Origin: Deltaproteobacteria bacterium
Lineage (GTDB): Bacteria > SAR324 > JACQKK01
Assembly (NCBI GenBank): GCA_029858505.1
Contig: JAOUEW010000003.1
Coordinates: 1-64,000 of the forward strand
Direction of reading: 5' to 3'
DNA length: 64,000 bases
In this document: one piece after another, positions 31,615 through 40,463 of the stretch
Numbering within the stretch: position 1 is the stretch's first letter
How the letters are laid out: every line of letters starts with the position of its first letter
Program-made: the position numbers and the translations under genes
Notes under the pieces: model-generated
Told to the model about the DNA's origin: nothing
Seen by the model: only the letters and a program-made list of their open reading frames with translations
Database searches by the model: none

Positions 31615-32592
31615 CTAAACCGAAGGCCCCAGGGCCTGCACCAGGGTGTCCTCGATGATGGCGGGGAGGTCCCGGTGGATTTCCGGAGGCAGGCGGAAGG
31701 CGGTCATGAAGGCCAGCACATGCAGGTCGTGGGGGCGCACCTCGCTGCGGCCGTCGAGCAGGGCGCGGGTTTTCATTAGCTTCACGGCCTTCACCAAAAA
31801 GGCCCGGTCGGAGATAAGCGCCTTGGTGTTGTCGAGTTTGTATTGGTTCACAAAGCGGTTGAGCAGGTGCATCAGCACCAGTTTGGCGGCATCGGGCACT
31901 TCCACCCGGTTCATTTTGTCGTAGGCTTCGTCAAAGTCTGCCCGAGACAGCAGGGTGGGCACGGCAGCCGTTTCTTTGCCATTGGAGGGCTGGCAGAACA
32001 GGTTAATAACCTGCTCCACTTCCCGCCAGCGGTTTTCAAAGATCAGCCCCTCGGCCTGGAGCTGCAAGGTGAACCGGTCCAGGTTGGCCGGGTCTAGGGG
32101 CTCGTTGTAGTAGTCGTCCAGGGCCGGGTTGCTGGTGGCAATGGCGGTCAGCAGCGGAATGCTTTCCGTGTGGTACTTGCGTTCGTTCAGAATGCGCAAC
32201 AGCACGTTCAGGGCTTCTCCCGGCGCGCGGGAGATGTCATCCAGCACGCACACTTCCGCCGTCAGCACCCCGCCCTTGCGGATGGTCTGGCCGATGACCT
32301 CGCTGCCGTCCTCTCCCGCCTCCCGCACAATCACCACGTCGCCCACCATTTCCGCCAGGCGGGTATCACGGTGGAACTGGTAGAAATAGAACCCCAGGTT
32401 GCTGGCTTGGCTGGCCACCTCGGCCAGCATGGTTTTGGCAATGCCGGGGGGGCCTTCAATGTAGATATGCTCCCTCGCCACCAGCCCCATCAGCAGAGCG
32501 TCTTTCACCGGCTCGTGGCCAATGACCCGGCGGTCCATCTCCGCACGCAGGGCGGAAAGTTTTTCAGCAATGGGGCTAGGGGCAGGGGGCAT
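31615..32592 (-). CDS. MoxR-family AAA+ ATPase, 325 aa
   Basis: A chaperone-like ATPase, usually paired with VWA-domain partners. Walker A is GPPGIAKT (47-54). The MoxR-typical FHRDTRLAEMVGD follows, then Walker B VCVLDDISRAPGEALNVLL, sensor 1 IATSNPA and a helical lid (RALLDGRSEVRPHDLHVLAF). The ATG at 32592 is used; a TTG lies 9 bases upstream. On the minus strand it follows the MoxR-VWA fusion gene at 33256-35349 but is separated from it by the opposing DUF4160/DUF2442 pair, suggesting an interrupted operon. Confidence 0.9.
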   Translation of the reverse strand: MPPAPSPIAEKLSALRAEMDRRVIGHEPVKDALLMGLVAREHIYIEGPPGIAKTMLAEVASQASNLGFYFYQFHRDTRLAEMVGDVVIVREAGEDGSEVIGQTIRKGGVLTAEVCVLDDISRAPGEALNVLLRILNERKYHTESIPLLTAIATSNPALDDYYNEPLDPANLDRFTLQLQAEGLIFENRWREVEQVINLFCQPSNGKETAAVPTLLSRADFDEAYDKMNRVEVPDAAKLVLMHLLNRFVNQYKLDNTKALISDRAFLVKAVKLMKTRALLDGRSEVRPHDLHVLAFMTAFRLPPEIHRDLPAIIEDTLVQALGPSV

Positions 32593-32787
32593 GGGTGCCA
32601 AAAGAGAAATAACGACGTGAAGGGGGAAACAAGGATGGGTGAAAAAGGTTGAGAAAAGCCTGCTTGGATTCGACTTACAAAGTAGTTTCCCATAGGGTTG
32701 GGGGTGTATTCAAGGCAAGTCTTGAAGTCCCTTTTCCTCATGGCGGCAAAAAGCGTAAGATAGTCACAGATTCAGGATGTATGACTT

Positions 32788-33027
32788 ATGAGCCCAACTG
32801 TCTTCCGAAAGGACAAATATCGTTTTTTCTTCTTTTCCAGGGAGGAAATACGAATGCATGTGCATGTCAGCCACCCGGATGGTGAAGCCAAATTCTGGCT
32901 AGAACCCCAAATCGCTTTGGAAACGCAATCCGGTCTAAGTTCAAAACAAATCAAAACCATTGAAACCCTGATTCACGAGAATCTACATGACGTCCAAACC
33001 GCTTGGAAAGCCCATTTCCAGAGTTGA
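32788..33027 (+). CDS. DUF4160-family protein, 79 aa
   Basis: The family pattern is clear: YRFFFFSREEIRMHVHVSHP, then GEAKFWLEPQIAL, and a C-terminal helix KTIETLIHENLHDVQTAWKAHF. In known genomes DUF4160 genes commonly sit beside DUF2442, as here, and the pair behaves like a toxin-antitoxin-type cassette of unproved function. The ATG at 32788 starts with no obvious strong Shine-Dalgarno. It overlaps DUF2442 by 41 bases. AT content is higher than in the flanking MoxR genes, consistent with insertion between them. Confidence 0.82.
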   Translation: MSPTVFRKDKYRFFFFSREEIRMHVHVSHPDGEAKFWLEPQIALETQSGLSSKQIKTIETLIHENLHDVQTAWKAHFQS

Positions 33028-33250
33028 AGTCACTCACATTTCACCCCACGGCTTGAGTATCCTGGTCGGCGATCGGGAGTATCACCTGCCCTTTACGAAT
33101 TACCCCTGGTTCCAGCGGGCTTCCACAGCCCAAATTCGCCGGGTAGAAATGTTGCACGGGCATCATCTCCATTGGCCAGAATTGGATATTGACCTGGAAC
33201 TGGAGAGCCTGGAACATCCAGAGGCCTATCCCCTCAAAGCCCGAATGTGA
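32987..33250 (+). CDS. DUF2442-family protein, 87 aa
   Basis: A small protein whose core (ISRVEVTHISPHGLSILVGD, then EYHLPFTNYPWFQRAS and LHWPELDIDLELESL) matches the DUF2442 pattern: a beta-hairpin module whose members often show a helical C-terminal extension, absent here. The start at 32987 overlaps the DUF4160 gene, so translation is probably coupled. The stop lies 5 bases from the convergent stop of the MoxR-VWA gene. If the pair is a toxin-antitoxin module, this one is the likelier DNA/partner-binding member, by inference only. Confidence 0.82.
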   Translation: MTSKPLGKPISRVEVTHISPHGLSILVGDREYHLPFTNYPWFQRASTAQIRRVEMLHGHHLHWPELDIDLELESLEHPEAYPLKARM

Positions 33251-33255
33251 TTCCT

Positions 33256-35349
33256 TCAGCTTGTTTTGGGCACAAACCCTTTGTAGGCCTTCACGCGAGA
33301 GGTCCGGTGATCGAGGGTCAGCCCCCCCCGGGGGTTGGGCCTGGCCACAAACTGCCCGCCGCCGGTTTCTTGGGAAATCGTGTCTAGAATTTCCGGGCAT
33401 TCGCTGGAACCAATGAACAGGGTGTGGATGGGCACCCCCAGCCCCTTGGCCCGCCGCCGTTCTTCCCGCACCAGCCAGTCGCCCTGGGTGGGTTCACCAT
33501 CGGTCAAAAACAAAATGTGGCGGTTGCGGGTGGGTTGGCCCTTCAACTCGTCCAGGGCTTCTTTCAACGCCATTTGGTAGTTGGTCACCCCAGCGCAGCT
33601 AACCCTGGAAGCAATGCGGATAATCTGATCGTAGTCTCGGGTGAAGAACTGACCTTCCAGGGTGTGCTTGCGGCAGCCATGGTTGAACTCAATGTACCCC
33701 AGGCGCAGGCGCTTCGATTTCACCAAGTCCACCAGCCGCACGATGACGGAGGAGGTCCAGCGGGCGAAACGGCCCTCCATGGATTGGGAGATATCACGGA
33801 CAATCACTACTTCGCCCCCCACGTGGCGTTTCTCCCGCTGGTGGGCCCTGGGCAGGCGCGGGTTGGGCCGGTCCATCCACAAGGCCATGTCGGCGGGGTC
33901 CGTGTCTATCACTTCATCCAGGGTGCGCATGGCCCGCCAGCGGCGGGGAGACCCCCCCAGGTGGCGCTCACGCTCTACCCGGTTGCGGTCCATGCGCCCG
34001 CTCAACGAATCAATCAGCACTTCCATCCGCTCCACGTCTTGGGGGTCCTGCTGGGTGGGGCCTAAGGGGTCTCCCAGGTCCGCGCCGTCTCGATAGGGAG
34101 CAGGGGCGGGAGGAATGCCCCGGCTGCCCCCCACCCCCAGGCCAGAAAGCTTGTCCAGGGGGTCATCTCCCTCCGGGCCCTCGGCCTGTTCGCTGCCGTC
34201 TTCTCCCTGCCCTTCCTCGTCGCCATCCTCACCCGGCTGCCCCTCCATGCCGGCTTGGTCGTCGCCACCTTCCCCTGGGTCTTCTTCCTCGCGCCAGTCC
34301 ACCTCTTCGTTGGCGGGGGGAAGTTCCTCGGTCATCTCGCGGAACAGTTCCGCCACCGGCGGCGGCACGCGAAAGGTCAGTACATGATTCAACACGGCGA
34401 GGTCGGCCGGGTGGGCCTTGGCGCTGCCCCGCAAAAAGGCCGCGGCCTGAATCAGCCGGGGAACCTTGGCCAAAAAGGTGCGGTCGGTGAGCAACGAGTT
34501 TTCCGAGGTGCAGGCGTGGTCGGCCAGCAGGCGGCGCAGCATAGCCAAATAGGCCCGCCGCACCAAGGGGGGGATTTCCACCTGGGCCACAGCCCGGCCA
34601 ATGGCGGCCACCCCCGCCTCTCCCAGGGGTTGGGGCGGGGCATCGGCGGTATGGTTCCCATCTGTACCTTGCCGGTTTATACCCTGTCCGTTCATGCCCT
34701 GTTCCCCTGCGCCCTGCCACCCCATACCATGGCGGGCCATCACCGCCCCGGCTTCCTCCCAACGGTTCGACACCACCGCCCCGGTCACCCGCACTTGCAG
34801 CAGAAAACGGTCCATGTGGGCCGGGTCCAAAGCCTCCACCGGAAAATGTTCCGACGGCGGGTTGCTGGTAGCCAAAGCCGTAACCAAGGGCAGGCGCTCT
34901 CCCCCGTACTGCCGCTCGTTCAGCAGCCGCAGCAACACGTTCAGGGCTTCTCCCGGTGCCCGTGTGATGTCATCCAGCACCGCTAGCCGGGCGGTCAGCA
35001 GCCCGCCTCGGCGCAGGCCCTGGGCCACCACCTCACCCTTTGCGCTTTTCTCCCGGCGAATCACGGGGTCGCCCACCAGGTCCGCCAGGCGTGTGTCGCG
35101 GTGAAAGGGATGAAAAAACAGGGGCAGCCCCAGGGCCAGGGCCGCGCTTTCCGCCAGATAGGTCTTGGCCGTGCCTGGCAGGCCCTCCAAATACACATGT
35201 TCCCCCGCCGCCACCGCCAGCCACAGGGCTTCCTTCATGGCGGCTTGGCCCATCACCCGGCTATCCAGCCAAGCCCGGGCCTGGTTCAGCCGGGCCAACA
35301 GTTCCGCTGGAGAGGGGTCTACAGGAGAAGAAGAGGGAGTGGTTACCAT
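33256..35349 (-). CDS. MoxR AAA+ ATPase fused to a VWA domain, 697 aa
   Basis: The N-terminal AAA+ domain has Walker A GLPGTAKT (56-63), FHRDTRLADLVGD, and Walker B VLDDITRAPGEALNVLL (Asp125-Asp126). A Gly/Gln linker and helical lid follow. Then comes a strongly acidic region (about 345-425, Glu/Asp/Gly-rich). The C-terminal VWA domain (about 510-690) keeps the metal site DISQS (Asp519, Ser521, Ser523) plus GVTNYQMAL (Thr) and FLTDGEPTQGD (Asp). MoxR and VWA are normally separate genes, so this single chain resembles magnesium-chelatase subunit D in layout. It lies downstream of fliG on the same strand. Confidence 0.9.
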   Translation of the reverse strand: MVTTPSSSPVDPSPAELLARLNQARAWLDSRVMGQAAMKEALWLAVAAGEHVYLEGLPGTAKTYLAESAALALGLPLFFHPFHRDTRLADLVGDPVIRREKSAKGEVVAQGLRRGGLLTARLAVLDDITRAPGEALNVLLRLLNERQYGGERLPLVTALATSNPPSEHFPVEALDPAHMDRFLLQVRVTGAVVSNRWEEAGAVMARHGMGWQGAGEQGMNGQGINRQGTDGNHTADAPPQPLGEAGVAAIGRAVAQVEIPPLVRRAYLAMLRRLLADHACTSENSLLTDRTFLAKVPRLIQAAAFLRGSAKAHPADLAVLNHVLTFRVPPPVAELFREMTEELPPANEEVDWREEEDPGEGGDDQAGMEGQPGEDGDEEGQGEDGSEQAEGPEGDDPLDKLSGLGVGGSRGIPPAPAPYRDGADLGDPLGPTQQDPQDVERMEVLIDSLSGRMDRNRVERERHLGGSPRRWRAMRTLDEVIDTDPADMALWMDRPNPRLPRAHQREKRHVGGEVVIVRDISQSMEGRFARWTSSVIVRLVDLVKSKRLRLGYIEFNHGCRKHTLEGQFFTRDYDQIIRIASRVSCAGVTNYQMALKEALDELKGQPTRNRHILFLTDGEPTQGDWLVREERRRAKGLGVPIHTLFIGSSECPEILDTISQETGGGQFVARPNPRGGLTLDHRTSRVKAYKGFVPKTS

Positions 35350-35573: not shown

Positions 35574-36581
35574 TCAACGGGCGGGGAGGGACTTCCCCAG
35601 GAATCGGATTTCTCCCGCCTCGGCCAAGCGCTGGGCAATCTGGGTTAGGCGCTGGCGGGCGGCGTCCATGTCCCGCACCCGGGCCGGAGCCAAACTGGCC
35701 AGCTCGGTTTGCAGCCGCCGGGCGGTCACCACCGAACAATTTTTCAAGATATGCTCCCGCAGGTCCTCTCCCACCGCCCGCAGGGTTAAGAGAACGTCCT
35801 CCATCGAGGCCAGGTCCAGGATTTTCTGGATGCCCGGACCGTCCAGCAGCAACAGGTCGTCCACCGTCACAATGTTCCGCCGGATGGAGGATGCCAGTTC
35901 CGGGTCTTTTCGCTCCAGACCAGCCAGCATGGCCTGGCCCACCGGGGGGGGTACCACGGCCACCACCTGGGAAATCTGCTTTACCCCATCGGTGGGAGGG
36001 GCTTCTGGGTTTTGCGGCTCGACAAACAGGTCTCCCAAAGCCGACTCCAGCATATCCAGCCATTCCTCCGGCACCCCCTTGATGCCCGCCAACCGTTCCA
36101 TCACCGGCTGCCGCAGGGGCGGGGGCAGGCGGCCAATGACCTTGGCCCCCAGCTCAGGGTCATCAAAGCAGGCCAGCACCACGGCAATGACCTGAGGGTG
36201 CTCCTTGGACAGCACCTGGGCAATGGTGGCGGGGGGATACCATTTTAACTTTTCCAAGGCTCCCCCTTTTTCAGGGGCAATGATTTTACCCAGCAGTTCT
36301 CCGCTTTTTTCCTCTCCCAGGGCCCGGCCCAGGGTTTGGGTGAGAAACCGCAGGCGGGTTTCGGGAGGAGCCGCCGGCGGAGGCTTGTGTTCTTTGCGCA
36401 GGTAAAATTCGTTGGTCACCCGGGTCACATCGGCCGGGGTAAACCGCTGATAGTCGGCCATCAGAGCCGTCACTTGGCGAATTTCTCCCTCGCTCAGGTT
36501 TTTCATCACCTCCGCGGCGCCGTCTTCCCCCATGGTGAGCATGAGAATCGCCGCTTTTTCGGGGCCAGTCAGCCGAGCCAT
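35574..36581 (-). CDS. fliG: Flagellar motor switch protein FliG (variant)
   Basis: FliG forms the switch ring that couples the stator to rotation. The ARLTGPEKAAILML N-terminus, a helical middle domain with KEHPQVIAVVLACFDD (the EHPQ-type motif), and the C-terminal torque domain LRAVGEDLREHILKN...LAEAGEIRFL are all present; 335 aa is normal. Against the remembered E. coli sequence, positions matching Arg281 and Asp288 are Val and Thr, while Lys264 is Arg and Arg297 is kept. The start at 36581 fits the family; an extended start at 36656 would overlap the upstream gene. It ends a fliM...fliG block. Confidence 0.88.
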   Translation of the reverse strand: MARLTGPEKAAILMLTMGEDGAAEVMKNLSEGEIRQVTALMADYQRFTPADVTRVTNEFYLRKEHKPPPAAPPETRLRFLTQTLGRALGEEKSGELLGKIIAPEKGGALEKLKWYPPATIAQVLSKEHPQVIAVVLACFDDPELGAKVIGRLPPPLRQPVMERLAGIKGVPEEWLDMLESALGDLFVEPQNPEAPPTDGVKQISQVVAVVPPPVGQAMLAGLERKDPELASSIRRNIVTVDDLLLLDGPGIQKILDLASMEDVLLTLRAVGEDLREHILKNCSVVTARRLQTELASLAPARVRDMDAARQRLTQIAQRLAEAGEIRFLGKSLPAR

Positions 36582-36618
36582 GGATGTTTTGAGGGAGAGA
36601 AGTGAAAAGAACGGAGGA

Positions 36619-37236
36619 TTACCGGGAGGGTTTCTTCCGTGGGGCTTTCTGGCCATTGGCCAAGTTATCCCAATAGGTATCGAATTCCGATTGATCCTTC
36701 AAGATCTCCTGCCGAATGTTCACCACCACGCCAAAGGGGGTATCGGGAAACACCGACGCGCGGAACGACAGCCATTTGTCGGCACGGTGACGGGCCACCA
36801 CTTCCCGTTTGAAGTCTGCCAGAGAATAGAGCCGCCCCTCGTACAAAATGTTTCCATCGGGGGTGACCTGATAGGCCACGGCCATCACCGTGCGGGCGGC
36901 CTTTCGCTTTCGCCGTCCCTCCTCCAACTGCCTGCGCGCGATCTCCTCTTTTTTCAGCACAATGAATTCTTCCATGAACGGATCCATGGATTTGGCCATT
37001 TTCTCCAAAAGATTTCGCTGGGTGGTGGCGATGTCTAGTTTCTGGCGGGTTTCCTCCACCTGTGCTTTCACCTGCTTGGTTTGCTGTTGATTGAAAAACA
37101 TCACCAAGGTGAGACACCCCACCAACAAAAACAACAGGTCAATAAAAGCGATGATGGCCCCGGTGGAGCGTTGCTCGCTGGGCAGTATTCCCGGGCGAAG
37201 GGAACCGGTACCGGTTTGGGGATGTTCGGAGGACAT
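36619..37236 (-). CDS. ExbD/TolR- and MotB-like single-span proton-channel partner, 205 aa
   Basis: One membrane helix (about 27-48, AIIAFIDLLFLLVGCLTLVM) carries Asp33 at the position of the proton-binding Asp of MotB, ExbD and TolR. A coiled coil (about 48-112) follows. A small periplasmic domain (about 118-190, VTPDGNILYEGRLYSLADF, then WLSFRASVFPDTPFG) resembles the ExbD periplasmic fold. The OmpA-type peptidoglycan-binding domain expected of MotB is missing. It starts 3 bases after the MotA-like gene, with GGGGAAA upstream, and precedes fliG by 37 bases. It is probably the second subunit of an unusual stator or proton channel. Confidence 0.72.
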   Translation of the reverse strand: MSSEHPQTGTGSLRPGILPSEQRSTGAIIAFIDLLFLLVGCLTLVMFFNQQQTKQVKAQVEETRQKLDIATTQRNLLEKMAKSMDPFMEEFIVLKKEEIARRQLEEGRRKRKAARTVMAVAYQVTPDGNILYEGRLYSLADFKREVVARHRADKWLSFRASVFPDTPFGVVVNIRQEILKDQSEFDTYWDNLANGQKAPRKKPSR

Positions 37237-37239
37237 GGG

Positions 37240-38637
37240 CTATTTCCCCTTGGATGGATCATCCTCGTGGAAGACCTGATGGCGGACGCCCTGGTTGGAA
37301 CTGAGCAGGTGTGGATCCCCTTTGGGCGGCGGCGGCAGGCGGTGATGCATCTGCTCCAGCAGCACCAAAATATCGTGGGTCAACACCCGCAATTGCAGCA
37401 TGTCCATCTCGATGGGCGGCTGGGCCCCCTTGCTGGCCCCCAACCCACCCACGGCCAGGGTCAACCCCCGTACCGTCTGCTCGATTTTTTCCAGCAGGGC
37501 CTGTTGTTGCTGCATGGCTTGGGGGTTCAGGGCTTCTTGGAAGGCTTTCAGGGTGAATTGGACTTCCTGGGCCACCTTGGTGGTTTCGCGGATCATCTGA
37601 TCGGAATCCAGGTTGGCCTTGGCCTGGGTAATTTCCCCAGCCATGCGGGAGAGTTCCTCCACCGCTCGGGCCAAGCGGGTTTCCCCCACCGAGGCGGGCA
37701 TCGCAACCCCAGTCGCTCCAGCCGCCGCGTATCCCGACCGCATGCTCATCTGCTGCGTGGGAAGAATAAACATGGCCATCAGGGTTTGCAGGGTGCTCAA
37801 CACCTCCATCACCGACCGTTCGTTTTGCATGTGCAGGGGGCGCAGCACCAGCACAAACAGGTTGGCCAAAATGGTGGTGCCCAAGGCCGTGGCAAACCCG
37901 GCCAAGATCGACACCTCTGGCATGGCCACATTGCGGCCAAAGGCCTGAAACATGGTGGCCAACCCCACCAGGGTCCCCACCAGCCCCAACTGCGGCAGCA
38001 CCTCAATCACCGTCCAAGAGAGTTTCATCCCCCGCTGGGTCAGCAGGGTTTGAATTTCCAGCAGCGACGCGTCCTGGTTCACCCAGGCACGGCGGTTCCC
38101 TTGTTCGTAGGTGCGCAAAATGTTTTGGTAGTGAATTTGAAGCAGCTTGCTGCGAAACACGGTTTTTTTCCTGGCCCGGCCAAACAAGCGCCCCAGCAGC
38201 CCCCGCTCTTTCGGCACCAAAGCCTTGGGGTCCGGGCCGAACCGGTTTTGGTTGATCAAATCCCCGTCGGCCTCTAACCGGGTGCCCTCCAAATGGAAGA
38301 ACAGACTGTCTCTCAAAATATGCAGCAGGGCAATGGAAAACGCGGCAAGGATGGAACCATACAGCAGTACCGTCGCCCAATCCGGCTCGTGGTATCCAAG
38401 CGCCACCACGAATCCGGCGATGAGAATGTACACCACGTTGCGCTGCAAGGGCGACGTGAGGTTGACCTTGTGAGGGGGCAACTCAAACCCACCCACGGTT
38501 TCCATTTTTTTTTGAGAAAACTCCTCCCAGGTGGGGAAGTTGTCCTCCACCAATTGGTCAATAGGCCGGCCGCCAAACAGCCCGGCCACCAATCCGAAGA
38601 CCCCCCGTTTTTTCTTTTTACCGCTGGAGCCTGGCAT
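37240..38637 (-). CDS. MotA/TolQ/ExbB-family proton-channel protein, 465 aa
   Basis: Four membrane helices are placed as in MotA: TM1 about 67-82, TM2 about 87-107, a 100-residue cytoplasmic loop rich in Arg/Lys, TM3 about 207-233 (VIEVLPQLGLVGTLVGLATM) and TM4 about 243-266 (ILAGFATALGTTILANLFVL). The TM3-TM4 sequence is the core of the MotA/TolQ/ExbB family. A long cytoplasmic tail (to 465) is helical. ExbB and TolQ usually have three spans, so the topology points to a stator-like protein. It is larger than MotA (about 290 aa). It lies in a row between fliM and fliG with the partner gene 3 bases downstream. Confidence 0.78.
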   Translation of the reverse strand: MPGSSGKKKKRGVFGLVAGLFGGRPIDQLVEDNFPTWEEFSQKKMETVGGFELPPHKVNLTSPLQRNVVYILIAGFVVALGYHEPDWATVLLYGSILAAFSIALLHILRDSLFFHLEGTRLEADGDLINQNRFGPDPKALVPKERGLLGRLFGRARKKTVFRSKLLQIHYQNILRTYEQGNRRAWVNQDASLLEIQTLLTQRGMKLSWTVIEVLPQLGLVGTLVGLATMFQAFGRNVAMPEVSILAGFATALGTTILANLFVLVLRPLHMQNERSVMEVLSTLQTLMAMFILPTQQMSMRSGYAAAGATGVAMPASVGETRLARAVEELSRMAGEITQAKANLDSDQMIRETTKVAQEVQFTLKAFQEALNPQAMQQQQALLEKIEQTVRGLTLAVGGLGASKGAQPPIEMDMLQLRVLTHDILVLLEQMHHRLPPPPKGDPHLLSSNQGVRHQVFHEDDPSKGK

Positions 38638-38641
38638 AGGA

Positions 38642-38666
38642 GAGGTTCGAGGTTCGAGGTTCGAGG
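38642..38666. repeat. Short 7-bp tandem repeat
   Basis: GAGGTTC occurs three times in a row plus GAGG, immediately upstream of the MotA-like start codon (38637). Slippage here could change the spacing of the 5' leader of that gene. Confidence 0.75.
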
Positions 38667-38733
38667 GTGGAACGACAGACGACGGGATACCTTCTCAGGT
38701 CACAGGTCAGGCTGGCGTTGTATCTGCCCAATC

Positions 38734-39402
38734 TTACAGCGCGGTGGAGGGAGAAATTTGAAACCCGTCTTTTTCCACCAAAGTGCGGGCCAAGTCTTGG
38801 TATTTTTCCCGGAAGGTATAGTGCCGGTCCGGCCGAGTCCGCACCACCCAGTATTCATGAAACCCGTGATCGCTGCATTCTTCGTGGTCCATCACCAGAG
38901 AAAATGGGGCGTCTTCCGGGTGTTTTTGATAGGCCCGCCGCAGACTATCTGGCGGCACATCCAAAAACGTGGCCAGGGTTTCCTCAAAGCGGGCTACCTC
39001 GGAACGGGCATCGGCTTCATCCCCGGCAAACAGTTCCCCTTCCGGGTCATCCCCCTCCACCGGAAAGCGCATTTGTCCCGCGTGAATCAGCTGCAACACC
39101 ATGCGAATTCCATTCACCTGATCCAGGTACTCCGCGTATTCTTCCAGGGCATCCTGCCGAATGGTAATGGAGCGGTTGTGTTCCAACGCGTCGAAAATCA
39201 ATTCTTCTGCTGCGGTAACCTGCCGCTCGGTTTCGCAGGGAAAAATCAACAATGGAGAGGTCAATGGCGCTTGGGCGGCAGTCGAGTCCACCGAATAAAC
39301 CTCTACCTGATATTCAGAAGGCTTAAACACCAAATGGACCCTATCCGCGTTCACCAGGGTGGTGTTGCCGTCATCGGTGTGAAATCGAATCCAGGTGGGC
39401 AT
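38734..39402 (-). CDS. Hypothetical cytoplasmic protein in the fliM-fliG block, 222 aa
   Basis: I do not recognise it. The N-terminal 40 residues look like beta-strands (PTWIRFHTDDGNTTLVNADR, VHLVFKPSEYQVEVYSVD), and the rest is acidic and mostly helical. There is no membrane segment or signal. It starts 50 bases after the fliM stop and precedes the MotA-like gene by 96 bases, so its position suggests an accessory role at the motor switch. No strong Shine-Dalgarno was seen before 39402. It could instead be an unrelated passenger. Confidence 0.65.
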   Translation of the reverse strand: MPTWIRFHTDDGNTTLVNADRVHLVFKPSEYQVEVYSVDSTAAQAPLTSPLLIFPCETERQVTAAEELIFDALEHNRSITIRQDALEEYAEYLDQVNGIRMVLQLIHAGQMRFPVEGDDPEGELFAGDEADARSEVARFEETLATFLDVPPDSLRRAYQKHPEDAPFSLVMDHEECSDHGFHEYWVVRTRPDRHYTFREKYQDLARTLVEKDGFQISPSTAL

Positions 39403-39452
39403 GACTATCGTAACGTAAAGGGTGGCCGGAAAGGTGGAAGGAGGGCCCAGGA

Positions 39453-40463
39453 TTACATCAGGAAGATTTCGTCCACCACCGGAGGGATATACACCAAGTT
39501 AGACACCTTCAGCGCTTGGTGTCCTTTGTAAGAGCCCTGGTACCCCTTGAACTTGGTGATGCCTTCCACGGTCACGTTGAGGGGCTTCTCCACTTCTTGA
39601 TTCAACCCCACAATGTCTCCCGGTTTCAAGGCCAGAAATCGTTTCACGTTCAGGTCGGCCCGGCCCAGTTCCACCACCACGTCAATCTTGGCCATTTTCA
39701 GGTTGGTGCGAAAGCGGTTCAGCCAGGTGGTGTCCACTTCGTTTTGGTCCGACTGAAAGCCCGCGTTCAACTTGGCCCGGATGGGTTCGATCATGGAGTA
39801 GGGAATGCACAGCGTGATCGACATGGGGGCCCGGCCCATTTCCACGTCAAAGGTCACCACCACCACCACCTCCGAGTGGGGCACAATGGCCACGAACTGG
39901 GGGTTCACCTCGGAACGGGTGTAGGTGATTTGCACCGGAAACACCGGCCGCCACGAGGTCTGCAGATCCTCCAGCGCCGAAATCACCACCCGCTTAATCA
40001 TCCGCTGCTCGATGGCCGAAAAGTCCCGGCCTTCGGCTTTGACTTCCAGTTCTCCCGTGCCCCCGAAAAACAGGTCAATCAGGGTAAACACCAGCCGGGT
40101 TTCAATCACCATGATGGCGTTGCCCCGCAGGGGGTTCATGCGGAACAGGTTCAGCGAAGAGGGAACCGGCAGGGTTTTCAAAAACTCCCCAAATTTGATC
40201 AACTCGGTGGAACGCACGGAGATGTCCACCACTTTCCGCAAGGCCGACGACAGGGTGAGGCGGAACATCCGCACGAAGCGGTCGTGGATAATCTCCAGGG
40301 TGGGCATCCGCCCCCGGATGATGCGGTCTTGGCTGGTTAAGTCGTAGGGAATGACTTCGCCGTCTTCACCTCCACCGCCGCCGGAGTCGTCCACCTCAAA
40401 ATCGCCACCGGTAATGCCCCGTAGCAGGGCATCTACCTCGTTTTGTGAAAGAACCGAACTCAT
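39453..40463 (-). CDS. fliM: Flagellar motor switch protein FliM
   Basis: It is the CheY-binding C-ring component. The N-terminal CheY-P binding motif is LSQNEVDALLRGITGG (5-20). The middle domain has the conserved GRAPMSITLCIPYSMIEPI region, and the C-terminal SpoA domain has DVVVELGRADLNVKRFLALKPGDIV. At 336 aa it is normal. A clear AAGGAG lies about 5 bases before the ATG at 40463. It leads the minus-strand block. FliN and the rest of the flagellar genes are elsewhere. Confidence 0.95.
   Translation of the reverse strand: MSSVLSQNEVDALLRGITGGDFEVDDSGGGGGEDGEVIPYDLTSQDRIIRGRMPTLEIIHDRFVRMFRLTLSSALRKVVDISVRSTELIKFGEFLKTLPVPSSLNLFRMNPLRGNAIMVIETRLVFTLIDLFFGGTGELEVKAEGRDFSAIEQRMIKRVVISALEDLQTSWRPVFPVQITYTRSEVNPQFVAIVPHSEVVVVVTFDVEMGRAPMSITLCIPYSMIEPIRAKLNAGFQSDQNEVDTTWLNRFRTNLKMAKIDVVVELGRADLNVKRFLALKPGDIVGLNQEVEKPLNVTVEGITKFKGYQGSYKGHQALKVSNLVYIPPVVDEIFLM

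Follow-up and report, generated by a model that had tools for sequence, protein, structure and literature searches.

A survey of ion-driven membrane motors divides them cleanly into a flagellar group (FIT), which carries an OmpA anchor and meets FliG, and a generic, ExbD/TolR-like group (GIT), whose extra domains are suggested to have roles specific to each lineage instead of contacting a rotor (PMC12505986). On the flagellar side, MotA contacts residues R281, D288 and D289 of FliG (PMC12505986). The nearest precedent for two FliG proteins in one cell is found in spirochaetes, where FliG1 works with the flagellar stator units (PMC7225975). We analyzed a stretch of 64,000 nucleotides from a SAR324 bacterium (assembly GCA_029858505.1, contig JAOUEW010000003.1, positions 1 to 64,000; hereafter the window), in which positions 35,574–40,463 encode, in minus-strand order, fliM, a gene for a protein of 222 amino acids (aa), motA2, tolR2 and fliG2. 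Our results suggest that the last three genes specify a second rotor–stator pair beside the ordinary flagellar motor, in one uncultured SAR324 ocean family.

The putative channel formed by MotA2 and TolR2 resembles both groups of motors. With MotAB and PomAB (FIT) it shares an A subunit that crosses the membrane four times and has a cytoplasmic loop joining transmembrane segments (TM) 2 and 3, a one-span B subunit with the channel Asp, and a genetic link to FliG. However, TolR2 has an ExbD/TolR fold in place of an OmpA-type anchor, MotA2 matches in TM3–TM4 only and carries a tail of ~190 aa, and ordinary MotAB is encoded separately in the same genome. With ExbBD, TolQR and AglRS (GIT) it has in common the periplasmic ExbD/TolR fold and a FIDLLFLL-type membrane segment containing the Asp, yet MotA2 has four spans instead of three, TolR2 inserts a helical stalk of ~65 residues between membrane and domain, and the cassette is in an operon with a FliG paralogue and lacks a TonB/TolA partner. 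Indeed, inspection of the open reading frames (ORFs) revealed no gene for a TonB/TolA-type transducer in the operon of any relative. Borrelia FliG1 and FliG2 likewise are two FliG homologues with divided roles in one flagellated cell, but there the paralogue is described as interacting with the stator units of the flagellum (PMC7225975), whereas SAR324 FliG2 shares an operon with an atypical channel pair of its own. In the open-access literature on FliG with ExbD, TolR or MotA and on FliG paralogues, we found no such cassette described. ZorAB of the Zorya systems is a MotAB-superfamily channel in a non-flagellar context that shares the long A tail with MotA2 and differs by its MotB/OmpA-like ZorB. 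A role in Zorya defence was rejected, as neither MotA2 nor TolR2 matched the PADLOC ZorA/ZorB profiles; no defence genes were recognized at the locus. On the best reading, the cassette belongs neither with the canonical MotAB stators nor with any known ExbBD/TolQR system.

The evidence for a functional unit starts with gene order. A MotA2 orthologue (45–57% identical) is present in eight of the nine other genomes of the same GTDB family, and no comparable match was found in 42 further genomes from its order and class. Furthermore, when a profile of the nine orthologues was run against 383 genomes, nothing comparable appeared outside the family: E-values go from below 1e-219 within it to ~6e-10 for the next best match outside, and these outside matches are short and lie around TM3–TM4. 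The genes motA2, tolR2 and fliG2 are contiguous, separated by small gaps or overlapping slightly, in seven of the ten family genomes (the window's own included), which represent different genera; loss of the order in all relatives, which the earlier note on this DNA had said would speak against its proposal, is thus not what we observed. In a further genome (G007), the contig stops four bases past tolR2 and fliG2 is found close to the start of another contig, so the triple is probably intact across the break. Since it recurs where the proteins are only 36–57% identical, the order motA2-tolR2-fliG2 is not a product of chance. Chance linkage of two drifting elements, an orphan pump and a fliG copy that has become redundant, would be in line with the high divergence of FliG2 and with losses in two of the ten genomes, but the order is maintained at this low identity, the frames are open and stop-free in every carrier, and functional positions are invariant in all three proteins, so that we consider such decay very improbable.

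The remaining two genes form a different unit. fliM (84–90% identical across the family) and the 222-aa gene (49–55% identical to the window copy) are paired in all ten family genomes, mostly at another place than the triple, which they adjoin only in the window's genome (G000) and its nearest relative, G003. Flagellar genes therefore enclose the channel only by lineage-specific adjacency. The earlier note had described a channel flanked by fliM and fliG; the fliG link holds across the family, while by gene order the fliM link does not, fliM being paired with the 222-aa gene. Judged by this arrangement, the link of the channel pair to FliG is the real one, and not that to FliM. The 222-aa protein is a candidate for an unrecognized flagellar protein of this lineage.

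FliG2 contains the FliG_N, FliG_M and FliG_C domains, all of them, like the FliM domain of the window fliM, far above the Pfam cut-offs, and does not reach the TIGR00207 equivalog cut-off (180 bits vs 226.7). A tree calculated from 38 FliG proteins unites the eight FliG2 sequences in a single clade (100/100) with long branches, apart from all ordinary SAR324 FliGs. By this tree the clade is an ancient one, its age relative to other phyla being uncertain with midpoint rooting and long outgroup branches. Mean identity is 44% for FliG2 and 88% for the ordinary FliG of the same family. The torque positions K264-R281-[DE]288-D289-[RK]297 (Salmonella numbering) are invariant in all 30 ordinary FliGs and absent or altered in all eight FliG2; the window protein reads R-V-T-E-R, with V, T and E at R281, D288 and D289, and R281 is retained in one FliG2 out of eight. 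The EHPQ motif, the known FliM contact of FliG, is retained in 38 of 38 proteins, all FliG2 among them.

Such a protein might also belong to a flagellum-independent machine, in which MotA2–TolR2 drives, or is capped by, a FliG2 ring away from the C-ring and serves, for example, to move the cell over surfaces or to do work on the envelope, much as the Agl/Glt gliding motor does. In most relatives the triple indeed has only non-flagellar genes around it, the ordinary torque charges are gone from FliG2, whose sequence changes far more quickly than that of FliG, and partners of ExbD/TolR type belong to the non-flagellar GIT group, AglRS included (PMC12505986). However, all eight FliG2 keep the FliG_N domain together with EHPQ, neither a second FliF nor a linked second FliM is available for another ring, and recognizable gliding genes are lacking beside the triple; we regard this machine as unlikely, but as a serious rival reading.

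In TolR2, Asp33 is part of a DLLFLL segment and both are invariant, with Asp33 found in all nine orthologues, in agreement with the channel Asp assigned by the earlier note. The window protein by itself has no Pfam match, but seven of the nine orthologues match ExbD (PF02472; E≤1, best 7.5e-5), the most frequent Pfam family, while five weakly match MotB_plug (best 9e-4), and OmpA is absent among the families listed for the nine. An AlphaFold model based on the nine sequences (pLDDT 79) predicts a continuous helix from residue 23 to 114 (~90 residues), followed by a small α/β domain. In a Foldseek search of this model against the PDB, the six best matches are all periplasmic domains of ExbD/TolR, including 8p9r, 8vgd, 8vgc, 8pek and 5by4 (probability 0.91–1.0, target-normalized TM score 0.45–0.66), with E-values that are weak (0.02–0.1) for matches of a uniform kind. 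Altogether, profiles and predicted fold support that TolR2 outside its membrane span is ExbD/TolR-like and not MotB-like, and two statements of the earlier note, on the likeness of the 205-aa partner to ExbD/TolR and on its missing OmpA domain, hold at the level of the orthologues. Its premise that a protein without OmpA has no cell-wall anchor was too strong: ExbD-type domains bind peptidoglycan transiently (PMC10771500) and TolR binds it once its dimer opens (PMC4646322), and therefore the lack of OmpA does not exclude anchoring to the wall.

The fold of this domain would also suit an energizing pump of the ExbBD/TolQR type, serving the envelope or transport. FliG2 would then only be an adaptor, positioning the pump close to the pole or the base of the flagellum, and would receive no rotation from it. 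One relative (G002) has the pump genes without fliG2, and the loss of torque charges in FliG2 is also compatible with this idea. Yet separate TolQ/ExbB and ExbD genes are present at other places in the window's genome, neither TonB nor TolA was seen next to the triple, MotA2 crosses the membrane four times, with a MotA-like hairpin, and not three times as ExbB/TolQ do, and its most conserved soluble part is the loop that faces FliG in MotA. We regard such a pump with adaptor as rather unlikely, but likewise as a serious rival.

Hydropathy and alignment place four hydrophobic spans in all nine MotA2 orthologues (TM1 is weak in one, 1.06), and a low-confidence model has helices at the same four spans. 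The description of a four-span MotA/TolQ/ExbB-family protein with a loop of about 100 residues was thus correct, the cytoplasmic TM2–TM3 loop measuring ~93 residues. The PF01618 match is confined to TM3–TM4, and profile–profile alignments with MotA and TolQ likewise cover only these segments (E 1.4e-5 and 3.1e-4) and do not place MotA2 nearer to either family. A tree of the family's MotA/ExbB proteins unites MotA2 in one group; its deep part is unreliable, and several rows were misread frames. Conservation outside the membrane is densest in the loop core at residues 160–205, where 26 of 46 residues are invariant. This loop cannot be aligned to that of MotA, where R90/E98 form the torque interface with R281/D288–D289 of FliG, and the FliG side is altered in FliG2. 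In G002, which lacks fliG2, the loop carries the private changes E178Q, W185R, D189E, A190S and G203S, an excess (Fisher p = 0.10) that is suggestive only.

We thus tentatively propose that motA2-tolR2-fliG2 is a dedicated rotor–stator cassette, with FliG2 most likely in the flagellar switch ring and acting as part of a second drive beside MotAB. MotA2 and TolR2 would make up a membrane motor of the MotA/ExbB superfamily that is driven by ions, with five MotA2 surrounding two TolR2 if the analogy to its relatives holds, and Asp33 would be the ion-carrying residue. TolR2 would span the periplasm on its long helix and hold on by its ExbD/TolR-type domain, not by an OmpA-type anchor, while FliG2 would be the cytoplasmic partner on which MotA2 pushes. 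Because FliG2 keeps the domains that serve FliF and the EHPQ motif for FliM, and because the genomes offer a single FliF and, as a rule, a single full-strength FliM, its most likely place is the flagellar C-ring, either together with FliG or instead of it, where its drive would add to that of ordinary MotAB. From the observed gene linkage, domains, folds, co-inheritance and changed torque residues we infer that the three proteins bind one another, generate torque and are located at the flagellum. Distances between FliG2 sequences correlate with those of MotA2 (r 0.67) and TolR2 (0.74) more closely than with those of FliM (0.36), with a partial r of 0.54 once the distances of the 222-aa gene are removed.

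Several observations weigh against this proposal. G002 retains motA2-tolR2 but not fliG2, and all three genes are missing from G001 (both assemblies are incomplete); therefore cells can do without the cassette, and the pump may function by itself. Most relatives that have fliG2 carry the triple away from other flagellar genes. FliG2 of G005 nearly retains the ordinary charges (R-R-D-E-R), hence the change of the interface is not uniform. The correlation of FliG2 with the 222-aa gene, a member of the other unit, is nearly as high (0.68), so much of the distance correlation is shared descent, and the distances are weak evidence for co-evolution of FliG2 with MotA2 and TolR2. Finally, the AlphaFold model of MotA2 is poor (pLDDT 47) and unusable for a fold search.

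A conserved operon of an ExbD-type motor and a FliG paralogue crosses the divide that the survey draws between flagellar and generic motors (PMC12505986). If its proteins work together, coupling to a rotor would not be confined to MotAB, and the cassette would provide a natural matched rotor–stator pair for studying the co-evolution of torque interfaces as well as a case of stator anchoring without OmpA. In its furthest form, the proposal would mean that evolution has joined an ion motor to a rotor built on FliG once more, this time with a motor of ExbD type from outside the MotAB stator lineage. A single flagellum, or else a separate FliG ring, would then carry two drives that differ in their mechanics, with rotor proteins that match them and have evolved separately; this we deem somewhat unlikely.

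The window's genome belongs to the SAR324 phylum, has a size of 2.79 Mb and is 97% complete. It has an ordinary fliG (C4:488164; 142 bits vs 86 for fliG2) as well as ordinary motA (C14:207831) and motB (C14:207409), and in a genome-wide profile search the window fliM is its only full-strength FliM (230 bits). Each family genome has one strong FliM match, except for a partial second one in G008, and one copy of FliF; the window's genome has one FlhA. A second complete flagellum was rejected on account of these single copies, and fliM as a cassette-specific paralogue was rejected because the flagellum has no other full-strength fliM and because this gene keeps company with the 222-aa gene. Within the class, 51 of the 52 genomes searched have FliG_N matches, and a SAR324 survey reported flagellar motility genes in all genomes that it studied (PMC9031357). 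The earlier note had asked for a check on ordinary motA/motB and a second fliG and fliM: motA, motB and an ordinary fliG are present, while a second FliM reaches just 37.5 bits. Its overall reading is partly supported, namely in the ExbD-like partner without OmpA, the ordinary fliG and motAB and the FliG link, and not in the FliM link and the anchor premise.

Table 1. Genes of the locus in the window
Gene	Position	Strand	Features
fliM	39453..40463	-	TIGR01397 328 bits (cut-off 220), PF02154 228 bits; sole full-strength FliM
222-aa gene	38734..39402	-	no Pfam or NCBIfam family; pairs with fliM, not with the triple
motA2	37240..38637	-	MotA/TolQ/ExbB superfamily, four spans; PF01618 29.6 bits, above cut-off
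tolR2	36619..37236	-	one span, Asp33, long periplasmic helix (predicted), ExbD/TolR-fold domain (predicted)
fliG2	35574..36581 (ORF opens at 36656)	-	FliG paralogue, PF14842 + PF14841 + PF01706

All five ORFs were found where the earlier note had placed them on one strand. As the ORF opening of fliG2 overlaps tolR2, and from the alignment with relatives, the ATG at 36581 is the likely start. Scans for promoters and terminators at the locus gave nothing above chance level. Downstream of fliG2, on the same strand (31615–35349), lie two genes for MoxR-type AAA proteins, one of them fused to a VWA domain; the MoxR and VWA genes were rejected as cassette members, as they are unmatched at the locus of any relative.

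Other flagellar-type genes occur elsewhere in these genomes. A degenerate second FliM-like protein is encoded in the window's genome (L106:8180-9139; G000:C14:259233; the 37.5-bit match), and weak FliM-like copies (38–66 bits) are found in other family members too. At L031:8351-13964 (G000:C5, 287–293 kb), fliL-fliN-fliO-fliP are followed by a 386-aa gene of the MotA/ExbB superfamily and then by two one-span TolR-like genes; this locus is a candidate for a second ion motor that is not MotAB and has a link to flagellar genes, and similar genes of 390–460 aa lie near motAB in relatives. G005 (L107:6481-13444) and G001 (L108:1855-9155) have a further, separate cluster that includes MotA-like and MotB-like genes. 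It encodes a protein of ~600 aa that starts with a hydrophobic segment at the N-terminal side and matches FliG_C (50–58 bits); related FliG_C matches were obtained in G002, G004, G007, G008 and G009, and none of this type in the window's genome. Frames of 640–660 aa with FliG_N matches suggest, by sequence, that relatives of this protein exist in the rest of the order. The protein itself has the look of a third member of the FliG type, bound to the membrane and served by a stator of its own.

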